From Dipylidium caninum (Eukaryota > Platyhelminthes > Cestoda > Cyclophyllidea > Dipylidiidae): a stretch of 64,000 nt of DNA. Every line of letters begins with the position of its first letter. Within the stretch, counting starts at the first letter, position 1. Made by a program: the position numbers and the translations under genes. The notes beneath the pieces are model-generated. The model worked only from the letters and a program-made list of their open reading frames with translations, had not been told where the DNA came from and searched no databases. The stretch spans positions 682,001-746,000 of the forward strand of contig QEYB01001436.1 of NCBI GenBank assembly GCA_017562135.1, in the 5' to 3' direction. Of this stretch, positions 20,182 through 23,999 are shown one piece after another.

Positions 20182-22925
20182 TTAATGCTTAGCATAAGTG
20201 ACGCTGATGGCATGGGTGCGTGTCAGTTTGAAGCCGTGATAGGTCACCTTAGCGGCAGTCGCTTGTGTTTCCGTCTCGTACTCCACGAAGCCGATTCCGC
20301 CCACGGCTCGGCGGGCTTCTTTGAAGCCATTGAACTGGTTGAAGAGCATAGTCAACATCGCGTCGGTGGTCTCCTCGGGCAGGTTGCTCACGAAGAGCAC
20401 ACGATTCGGCGGCTCGGCGTCGCCCTCGCCGTCAATCTGAAAGGGAGAAGCGACTGGCCGCTGAGTCACGGGCAAGCAAGGTAGGAGGGTCGGGAAAGAG
20501 ACTTTCAAGTGTAAGGCGAACAAGTCTACACGAGATCGAGTTAAAAATCAACAAAATAAACCGTAAAAAGAATAAAGTGGAACCACAACCGGAAGCTCAA
20601 TAGACTTCAAGTGAGCCATTTTGTGCGGGAGATGACAATCTTACTGGCCGACTCGCAGGACCTTTCAGTGCCGGATTCAGGCAGACAAACAGAGTAGATG
20701 GCCAGAGGTTAAGCGCATTACGCGAGGCGGGGCACTCATTGTGAAAAACAAGATTTGGTCCACAGGGTGAAGAGCATAAAGATGCTGGTAAGACAGACAA
20801 ATGAAGAAGGCTGGGAAGTAGTCAAAAGATACTCTCAAATCGACCTGTCAAGTGGCCGAATGAGGAATATCTGCATCGCCCAGCTCACGCTGAGTGTTCG
20901 CACAAACTGCGAAGTGGGAAGGTTTAAAAAGGAGGGGGGGGAGGTCATCAACCAGATGGGTTATAAGTTCACTTCGAGGCTCGACGGTGGAGACGATTGC
21001 AAAAGAACGTGCCCGTGGCCAAACTCCACACCTTCTTCTTTTAAAGCACTGGGAAAGGTGTTATGAACACAGTCGCTTTTCGGCTAATTTTATCAACTCC
21101 AATTGCTCTCCCTCTAGCATATTTACAGAGGAAGAAAGGCCAAAGAATAGAGAAATAAATCCTAAAAGTCTTCAACACTAAATTTCTAAATCCACCTCCT
21201 TCTCATATATTCGAATAGTAGAAAGACAAATAAGGGGGCCGCGAACTTTACCTAAAGCTAAACATAATTTTAGAGAAGGAATCGAACGGGAGGAAAAGAC
21301 CCCCAATAGGAAGAATGGTGTCTATTCTTCCCGAAAGGAATCACCTACTTTCAACGAAAAAGAATATCATCACAGGAATTACCGATTTCGTAAGACTGAC
21401 GAGTTTAAAAAAAGACAGCTGATGAAAGACATAGGAGGGAATCAGACGCGAAAACGTGGTCCCATGAAGGCCTTTTAACTCCAACAGCTAGACCGCACAA
21501 AATTAGTAGGACCGAATATTAAAGCTCACAAGAAGGACAAATGTTGACCATGGAAAAAAGTGGAAAACTGGTGCAAACCTGGCCATTGACAACGGCACCG
21601 GCGGCACCAGAAGCAGCAGCGGCAGCAGCAGCTGCCTGACGTTGAGCCAACTTCCTCCTCCGTCTTTTCTCCCTTTCTTCCTCCTTCTTCTTCTGCGTCT
21701 CCGCGTTTACGCCCTGCAACACCTCGATTTGGGTCGAGTTCTCCGCGCATATTGTATACGCATTGGCTGCAGCGATAAAGGAGGGTTGATCAGCTCCAGT
21801 GGTCGTATATATAAAAACAAATGGAAAGCTTCTCCACAGGATCCGAGACAAACGCTAAAATCTAGTTATTCTAAAGCGAGTGCGGAGAGAACAAGTGTTT
21901 GGAGAAGAACAGTTCAGACACGAATAACCACCATAAATCGTTTGCTTTTATTCAGTGCATCCACTCAACAGTTTCGCAGCTGCAAAACGGCAATATTCGC
22001 GAGCACCAGAAATTTTTCAGCCATTAGTGAAATTGTGGGGCATTCCACAATGATGCATGGATATTTTGACGTCTATAGCAATGAAAGAATTCAAACTACA
22101 CCATGTGAATTCAGAAATTATAGACCATGGCGCATCTAGTAAAAACTCCTAACAGCCGATCAAAAATTACTATTTTTAATGACAAGCGCCTGAGGAACCA
22201 CCAAGGGACTTGCAGTGTGTTGTAAAAGAGAGTAGGGAAATTCTGGATACTCGACTAGCAAATGGAATCTCTCAATTGAGGCACATACAGGGAAAGTAGA
22301 AAATAGGTTACTGAGCTGTTTGATTTGGCGGAGGTAGGGGGAAAAGGGGTAGAATACTTCGTGCTCTTACGCAAATCCACTTTCTATGTCAAAAAGAACC
22401 AAAACACAACTACGAGGCTGAGGTAAAGCAAGCAACAGTTTTTATTGCAATTATGATCAAGTAAAGAAACAAGGGAGAATTAAAGAAAGTACAATAAAAA
22501 CATTTTTTAGTTCACCGCATAAGATCAAGTACCATTAGAAAAATCTCTAGCTAAAGGATATATAACTGTAAATGCTATTGCAGTATCCGCAGAAGCAGTT
22601 AGCTACTGCAGTAGAAAAGCGCACTGCTGCAGCGCATTGCAATAAGGGAAATTACAAAATAAAGCCGTCTGAGAAAAATTAAATAAATGGAGACCTTATC
22701 AAAGAGTTGGAATCCTTGCAGCGCCCTTAACGCTGTCGTGGCAGATGTAAGCGCCTGGAAGATTATGAAGGCCTGACCGCGCATTTTCGGAGTCTTCATC
22801 GCGATTATTTCCAGTACTCGTCCATACGGTGAAAAGAGGTAGTAAAGGGACCTCTTCAGATCCGCTTTCTTCAACTTATCATTCAGATTATTCACGTACA
22901 GAGTGTGATTCGGTCGGATATCCAT
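20182..22925 (-). CDS. SNRPB2: U2 small nuclear ribonucleoprotein B'' (U1A/U2B''/SNF family)
   Basis: U2B'' binds stem-loop IV of U2 snRNA, with U2A', in the nucleus. Three exons fit: 22925-22695, 21766-21579 and 20436-20182. Exon 1 starts MDIRPNHT, as in vertebrate U2B'', and holds RRM1 with RNP2 LYVNNL and RNP1 RGQAFIIF. Exon 2 opens PMRIQYA, the exact continuation of RRM1, then a Lys/Arg/Glu-rich linker and a run of alanines. Exon 3 is RRM2, starting RVLFVSNLPEET and ending in TYAKH. One base appears to be missing near 21745 (after PMRIQYA). Restoring it gives 224 residues, against 225 in human. RRM2 lacks several residues of the VPGRHDI loop, so it is shorter than usual. Exon 1 is preceded by a good acceptor only three bases before the ATG, and SNRPA ends 123 bp upstream. 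Orthology to U2B'' versus a lineage-specific SNF duplicate is not settled. Confidence 0.88.
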
Positions 22926-23048
22926 CACCTTGAAAATGCAAAAGCAATGGCATTCGCAATCACAGACCACAATTCACAAACAATAAAATAACGGAAATAG
23001 GTGAAAAACTTTATTGACATAAAACAGTAGCACACGGAGCGCAATAAA
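22926..23048 (-). promoter_or_regulatory. intercistronic region with poly(A) signal and trans-splice-type acceptor
   Basis: Between the SNRPA stop (23051-23049) and the SNRPB2 ATG (22925) lie 123 bp. On the minus strand AATAAA is at 23015-23010. About 80 nt further on, a pyrimidine-rich stretch ends in AG at 22930-22929, three bases before the ATG. Poly(A) signal, about 100 nt spacer and acceptor is the standard intercistronic layout of spliced-leader operons known from nematodes and flatworms. There is hardly room for an independent promoter. The spliced-leader interpretation is inference. Confidence 0.55.
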
Positions 23049-23999
23049 TCACTTCTTTGCGAAAGTGATTCGCAATGGATGGCCCGGGCGAATGTTGAAA
23101 CCTTGAAGACCATGCTTGGCCGTCGCAGCCTCCGTTTCACTGGAAAACTCTACGAAAGCAATATCGTGGCGAGAAGGTACCATCCGAATCTCACGAAAAC
23201 CGACAAAGGGTGCGAAAAGCATGCCCAACATAGCTTCGTTAGCGTCTTCTGGGAGGTTAGTGAGGAAAAGAATCTTGTTCGGCGGTTGATCGGGAATAGT
23301 AGCCGGATTTATAGTTGGTGGATGAGGTTGAGACGAGGCCGACGACGAGTGGTTAGAGGAAGATGCGCCAGGCGCCCCGTTTTCTGCTGCCATGGCGGCA
23401 GCTTGAGCTGCGGCTAAGCGTTGCTGCCGACGTCGTATAGCCCGCGCACTACCACCACCGATCATGGCAGCGGCATCAAGAGCCGAACTCTGTTGTTGCG
23501 TAGGTGGTGGCAATGGTGGAGGTGGAGGCTGACGCTTTGGACGCTCAACAAATGTGCCCTCACGTTTAGCAATAATGTCGGACGTAGTGCGCGCAAAATT
23601 AATGCACATAGGCTTCTCATAGAGAGGAAACCCGCGCATCGCTTCAAGAGCGCTACGTGCAGAATTAATTTCGGAGAATACAACAAATGCTTGGCCTCTC
23701 ATCTTAACGGACTTGCCTCAAAATAAAGAAAGCTACCGTCTCAAAACCAAGATCCTACAGGCAAAGCGCATTAAAAAAGACTCACCAGTAATTATGTCAA
23801 GGATCTGTCCAAACTGAACGAAAACTGCGTACAGAGACTTCTTTAATTCATCGGTTTTGATTTTTTCATTAAGATTGTTTATATAAATAGTGTGGTTCGG
23901 AGGAAGGACAGGCGCTGAGGCTGGCATACCAGTAGTATGGCCAGGAACACCCGAAGAAGCCGATGGAATTATCCCCGGTGGGATTGAACCGATGCTCAT
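23049..23999 (-). CDS. SNRPA: U1 small nuclear ribonucleoprotein A (U1A/SNF)
   Basis: U1A binds stem-loop II of U1 snRNA through its first RRM. There are two exons, 23999-23786 and 23716-23049, separated by a 69-bp intron. The 293-residue product is close to human U1A (282) and needs no frame correction. After a Pro/Ser/Gly-rich N-terminus of about 30 residues comes RRM1 with HTIYINNLNEKI (RNP2) and KMRGQAFVVF (RNP1); the aromatic and Gln residues that contact RNA in U1A are kept. A linker with PERPK-like basic, polyproline and Ala-rich parts leads to RRM2, beginning KILFLTNLPED, with the full VPSRHDIAFVEF stretch, and ending ITFAKK. It lies head-to-tail upstream of SNRPB2. Its 5' side faces the large plus-strand gene at 25.1 kb, about 1.1 kb away, so the two could share a divergent promoter region. 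Confidence 0.92.

Follow-up and report, generated by a model that had tools for sequence, protein, structure and literature searches.

We analyzed a 64,000-nucleotide stretch of the Dipylidium caninum genome (the window; contig QEYB01001436.1, positions 682,001 to 746,000 of the forward strand) in which the genes encoding U1A (SNRPA) and U2B'' (SNRPB2), splicing proteins specific to U1 and to U2, lie one behind the other on the minus strand. The U1A stop codon and the U2B'' ATG are 123 nt apart, and this gap holds a polyadenylation signal for the first gene and an AG just ahead of the second. Judged from the sequence, the pair probably forms a two-gene flatworm operon that is resolved by spliced-leader (SL) trans-splicing.

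The U1A gene has two exons separated by a 69-nt GT..AG intron (23717..23785). Exon 1 (23786..23999), recognized from its translation, splice sites and a PDB match to human U1A, encodes the N-terminus and the first half of RRM1, and exon 2 (23049..23716) the remaining RRM1, the linker, RRM2 and the stop codon. The two exons together encode a protein of 293 amino acids, which aligns to those of relatives without gaps. The minus strand between 24000 and 27661 contains no reading frame of at least 130 codons, hence U1A looks like the first gene. The intercistronic region (22926..23048) carries AATAAA at 23015-23010, 33 nt past the U1A stop codon, and the proposed trans-splice acceptor AG at 22930-22929. 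The U2B'' gene begins with exon 1 (22695..22925), which encodes the start codon and most of RRM1 and has a PDB match to human U2B''. It continues with exon 2 (21579..21766, 188 nt), encoding the end of RRM1 and a charged, alanine-rich linker in a frame that is broken in the assembly, and exon 3 (20182..20436), encoding RRM2 and the stop codon. The introns of the two genes are at differing places. An earlier reading of this DNA, the original prediction, had SNRPA ending at 23049, SNRPB2 starting at 22925 on the same strand, AATAAA at 23015-23010 and an AG three bases upstream of the second ATG, all of which proved correct on re-checking. The interval it gave, 22695..23999, takes in U1A and exon 1 of U2B'' and has to be extended to 20182 for the two further U2B'' exons; these and the U1A intron are additions to it.

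The U1- and U2-specific roles of the two proteins were assigned by sequence comparison; in these roles U1A would bind stem-loop II of U1, and U2B'', together with U2A', stem-loop IV of U2. Among PDB entries, RRM1 of U1A matched human U1A best (175.3 bits; human U2B'' 154.2 bits), and RRM1 of U2B'', used without its last part, which is encoded in exon 2, matched human U2B'' best (121.1 bits; human U1A 108.4 bits). Each protein has two RRMs, with RRM_1 scoring above the Pfam cut-off in U1A and in both halves of U2B'', and the two RRM1 sequences are 52% identical. Flatworm U2B'' retains RRM2, but with a shorter version of the LVPGRHDIAF stretch found elsewhere in the SNF family. A six-frame search of the whole 106 Mb genome with RRM1 of U1A (12 candidates scored) gave 13 matches. 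Three of them were the U1A exons, with 113.8 and 78.2 bits, and U2B'', with 85.6 bits; the remaining ten reached at most 25 bits. Because the scores of these ten are so low, U1A and U2B'' seem to be the only two clear SNF-family genes in the genome, and they are each other's neighbors.

There are two AG dinucleotides in the 123-nt gap, one directly behind AATAAA and the other three bases before the U2B'' ATG, and the second resembles a 3' splice site. On both strands of the window together, 78 of 8,115 intervals between AGs have at least 80 nt, and an AG within 10 nt of an ATG and preceded by at least 78 AG-free bases was found at 7 of the 1,747 window ATGs tested, the U2B'' ATG included. An exon starting behind this AG would have 22928 as its first base, not 22929 as originally predicted. 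With GTG as the only bases left before the ATG, the 5' end of the U2B'' message must come from elsewhere if the AG is used. Alternatively, U2B'' could have a promoter of its own, with transcription starting in the gap, an unspliced 5' untranslated region (UTR) and no trans-splicing, and its position next to U1A would then be a leftover of the duplication. Tandem duplicates often lie adjacent without forming operons, in keeping with this explanation. However, the 123 nt must also house the 3' end of U1A, and both the lone AG that ends a long AG-free stretch just before the ATG and the apparent maintenance of the linkage in three flatworm classes (see below) speak against it, making separate promoters unlikely. 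A promoter and terminator scan of positions 22900-23100 found nothing, using models of the bacterial type that are uninformative for an animal.

The D. caninum genome carries at least five SL RNA genes. Bases 2-21 of the cestode leader had five exact matches (loci L017-L021), one on contig C354 and four on contig C531, the latter at 1077, 8779, 11399 and 13996, with the last three spaced by ∼2.6 kb. At all five loci the identical leader CACCGTTAATCGGTCCTTACCTGCAATCTTGTATG is followed by GTGAG and, further on, by AGTATTTGG. This leader has 35 nt, one base fewer than the published cestode leader CACCGTTAATCGGTCCTTACCTTGCARTTTTGTATG (PMC3795323), from which it differs near the 3' end. The 5' 20-mer succeeded as a query; neither the full-length published leader with up to three mismatches nor its 3' part with two donor bases was found in the genome. 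Allowing up to three mismatches to bases 2-21 produced 3 matches on the forward and 8 on the reverse strand, against 3 and 3 for a reversed-pattern control. Flatworm SL RNAs are described as having a leader with a terminal AUG, a GU donor and an Sm-like UVUUUGG stretch (Calvelo et al., PMC12582326), and the five loci all have a leader ending in ATG, a GT donor and an Sm-like stretch. Joined to base 22928, the leader would bring its AUG in frame with the U2B'' ATG (AUG GUG AUG GAU).

In an operon of this kind, transcription would start upstream of U1A and continue through U2B''. The U1A message would be cleaved and polyadenylated just past AATAAA, and the SL ribonucleoprotein would trans-splice the leader onto the AG at 22930-22929 and so provide the U2B'' message with a cap. 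Translation of U2B'' could then start at either of two in-frame AUGs, the terminal one of the leader or that of the U2B'' gene, with three bases between them. Calvelo et al. (PMC12582326) sought operons among genes on the same strand at most 300 bases apart, which is the situation here with 123 nt on the minus strand. The polyadenylation signal of the first gene and the acceptor AG upstream of the second are both present, which speaks to their presence rather than their use.

We next considered the two genes in other flatworms, drawing on the best 120 rows of each search. Among the matches listed, five species had a contig given for both proteins, and in all five the contigs were of equal size: the monogenean Cichlidogyrus casuarinus (21,857), Fasciola gigantica (237,866), Calicophoron daubneyi (17,814,302), Dicrocoelium dendriticum (111,138,337) and Schistosoma turkestanicum (23,359,495). 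We infer that U1A and U2B'' share one contig in these species; equal size is telling where the contigs are short, as in the first two species, and of little weight where they are chromosome-sized, as in the other three. A motif scan of 274 fetched proteins also marked five public gene models as implausible U1A-U2B'' chimeras, three from cestodes (Hydatigera taeniaeformis, P0001; Mesocestoides corti, P0003; Hymenolepis diminuta, P0004) and two from trematodes (Clonorchis sinensis, P0025; Fasciolopsis buskii, P0131). Linkage of the two genes thus appears to have been kept across cestodes, trematodes and a monogenean. The chimeras leave U1A at differing points, cutting RRM1 or RRM2, and for this reason look like errors of gene prediction; chimeric gene models are a common outcome of flatworm operons (Calvelo et al., PMC12582326). 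An operon would explain why U1A-U2B'' fusion proteins stand in some flatworm gene catalogues. In P0001 and P0004 a valine precedes the U2B'' methionine, fitting AG|GTN ATG as in D. caninum.

The fused models could also be taken at face value. The AG would then be a cis acceptor that joins U2B'' to a 5' exon located inside U1A or ahead of it, giving a second product of a single transcription unit or a true fusion message. Such models exist in five relatives, and acceptors are extensively shared between cis- and trans-splicing (PMC12582326). Their varied exits from U1A and cut RRMs resemble prediction error, however, and separate full-length U2B'' proteins are present in other species (P0121-P0129), while M. 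corti has a separate full-length U1A (P0005) besides the fused P0003. We consider cis-splicing at this site very improbable. An operon resolved by the SL is more likely than either a promoter within the gap or splicing in cis to a 5' exon. The original prediction of a trans-spliced operon gains good, though indirect, backing from the short gap, the AATAAA, the single usable AG, the SL RNA genes, the linkage and the chimeras, and it is from these that we infer trans-splicing.

Several observations, besides the small weight of equal size in large contigs, weigh against an SL-resolved operon. Six other ATGs in the window share a near AG preceded by a long AG-free stretch, and the pyrimidine tract ahead of the acceptor AG is modest by eye. 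The junction valine of P0001 and P0004 is also the next residue of U1A, and these are protein sequences only; the junction residue of P0003 is threonine, which misfits an acceptor placed exactly as in D. caninum. SL trans-splicing was detectable for less than 31% of mRNAs in all species studied, and the same acceptors are much used in cis as well in flatworms (Calvelo et al., PMC12582326). Finally, the U2B'' reading frame is not continuous over all exons in the D. caninum assembly, because the frame of exon 2 is broken.

Exon 2 begins with PMRIQYA in the frame of exon 1, and the conserved linker is then read in another frame. Annotated proteins of other cestodes are unbroken across the matching region, and exon 2 is present in a single copy genome-wide. 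The broken frame and the lack of a second genomic copy could mean that U2B'' is decaying in D. caninum, with U1A doing both jobs in the manner of Drosophila SNF. Against such decay, both RRMs are conserved (95% identical to the Hydatigera sequence over 161 columns), and relatives have intact copies. A small assembly error is simpler and is probably the cause of the frame break, and we consider decay of U2B'' very improbable.

In a tree of 60 rows, flatworm U1A proteins fell on one side of one branch (support 100/99) and flatworm U2B'' proteins on one side of another (100/100); a second tree of SNF proteins had 64 rows. Cestodes, trematodes and the monogenean Cichlidogyrus are all represented in both the U1A clade and the U2B'' clade, which places the duplication before the split of the three classes. 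An SNF gene would thus have been duplicated before monogeneans, trematodes and cestodes separated, with one copy taking on the U1 role and the other the U2 role. A recent tandem duplication was rejected on the 52% identity of the RRM1 sequences and the two deep clades. The local duplication proposed originally agrees with the adjacency of the genes, which would point to a tandem origin, but the event would have to be old in view of the separate clades, the RRM1 identity and the differing intron places. An SNF-family tree had been suggested at that stage as a check, and the trees gave the deep U1A and U2B'' clades. The grouping of flatworm with vertebrate U2B'' on one side of a branch of the unrooted tree was weak (78/86).

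Holding flatworm U1A and U2B'' together, as a duplication specific to flatworms would require, was rejected in the approximately unbiased (AU) test when three U1A-like proteins were left out (AU p 0.0055) and not rejected when they were included (AU p 0.327), a setting with long branches. The three proteins (P0026, P0028 and P0029) are sister to flatworm U1A in the trees, share the ITGKS stretch of its RRM1 and are perhaps from a free-living flatworm. The best 120 of the 1782 matches in a search with the U2B'' alignment named no orthologue from a free-living flatworm. Vosseberg et al. (PMC9887622) report at least 22 independent duplications of SNF, in which RRM1 of U1A changed recurrently and U2B'' repeatedly lost its RRM2, and the recurrent sequence changes point to the same division of roles. 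Long branches and convergent changes may blur the placement of the flatworm duplication.

The gap also contains a sequence that resembles the loop of stem-loop II in U1 small nuclear RNA (snRNA). The stretch ATTGCGCTCC at 23045-23036 (minus strand), three bases past the U1A stop codon, has 9 of the 10 bases of the loop of D. caninum U1 stem-loop II; the bases after the stop codon read TTTATTGCGCTCC, and the loop reads ATTGCACTCC in all five U1 genes inspected. Two further ATTGC motifs lie between ATTGCGCTCC and the acceptor, within a cluster of this motif at 22926-23160 (minus strand). Three ATTGC motifs occurred in 5 of 18,252 overlapping 123-nt segments of the 64-kb stretch, all 5 overlapping the U1A-U2B'' locus, and were reached in the gap by 27 of 5000 dinucleotide shuffles; a match of at least 9 of 10 to the U1 loop was reached by 11 of 5000.

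The human U1A protein inhibits polyadenylation of the mRNA that encodes it, acting via a bipartite element close to the site of polyadenylation (PMC6884704). The D. caninum gap is like this element in having a U1-loop-like stretch in the U1A 3' UTR near the polyadenylation signal (PMC6884704, PMC9977717). By analogy, free U1A or U2B'' might bind the gap RNA and restrain formation of the U1A 3' end or trans-splicing. The operon, kept across parasitic flatworms, would then both co-supply the U1- and U2-specific proteins and sense their supply. Some results weigh against such feedback. The motif-count and loop-match tests were chosen after the sequence had been seen, and the sole mismatch of ATTGCGCTCC to the U1 loop falls within the ATTGCAC core. 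No supporting hairpin was found for the stretch (z 0.68; 142 of 200 shuffles fold at least as well), whereas the human element has a bipartite structure, and ATTGCRCTCC with up to one mismatch showed no enrichment in the window, with 7 occurrences against 7.64 expected. We hence regard an operon that combines joint supply with sensing as a rather remote prospect.

Genes for the U1 and U2 snRNAs are present in the D. caninum genome. For U1, 30 matches were listed, 26 of them over the cut-off, on contigs C388, C506, C802 and C219, and for U2, 46 matches were over the cut-off, on contigs C103, C517 and C867. The genes for both RNAs are mostly in tandem arrays. The U1 genes vary near the 5' end, with ACTTACTTGG in the two on C219 and ACTTACCTGG in those inspected on C388.

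We also compared the pair with known systems. In Caenorhabditis elegans, which also has SL trans-splicing, rnp-2 and rnp-3 (U1A and U2B'') are adjacent and probably in one operon. This animal belongs to another phylum, and would be a parallel case if the duplications were separate; the sole sequence comparison that bears on it is a chain of PDB 8ro0 among the PDB matches of both RRM1 sequences. Vertebrate U1A (SNRPA) and U2B'' (SNRPB2) belong to the same family and have the same two roles by sequence. The human SNRPA and SNRPB2 genes are not known to be linked. The vertebrate pair differs in its origin, which Vosseberg et al. trace, with reference to Williams et al. 2013, to an independent duplication (PMC9887622). 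Drosophila SNF, of the same family, binds both U1 and U2 snRNA and differs from the flatworm proteins in that one protein serves both roles (PMC9887622).

Flatworm SL operons such as Op8, which combines cytochrome b-c1 subunit 7 and enolase, resemble the U1A-U2B'' locus in that their genes share a strand and are separated by no more than 300 bases, an SL acceptor (at U1A-U2B'' a proposed one) closely precedes the second gene, and annotations contain chimeric gene models (PMC12582326). The U1A-U2B'' pair differs from them in consisting of paralogues with matching roles in the U1 and U2 small nuclear ribonucleoproteins. None of 26 putative operons analyzed by hand was conserved in all species studied by Calvelo et al. 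(PMC12582326), whereas the U1A-U2B'' linkage seems to extend over cestodes, trematodes and a monogenean, so that this candidate operon may be conserved unusually widely for a flatworm. No mention of the pair was found in text searches of PMC12582326, PMC5832876, PMC6530080 and PMC12964723 or in the literature searched, and supplementary tables may well list it. Flatworm operons and SL trans-splicing being known already, U1A-U2B'' is apparently a real and widely kept further example. If its products have stayed in one transcript since before the three classes split, the locus is a natural experiment on whether supplying the U1- and U2-specific proteins together, as co-transcription would do, is of consequence.

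Across the whole window, Rfam models at their gathering cut-offs gave no matches. A degenerate stretch of small-subunit rRNA lies ∼1 kb downstream of U2B'' (18823-19122, minus strand; by eye to ∼19155), covering model positions 57-388 of RF01960 and scoring 39 bits, below the cut-off of 50 (E 9.4e-8). An open frame of 510 codons on the plus strand (5112-6641) encodes a sodium/hydrogen exchanger domain (PF00999, E 2.4e-33).

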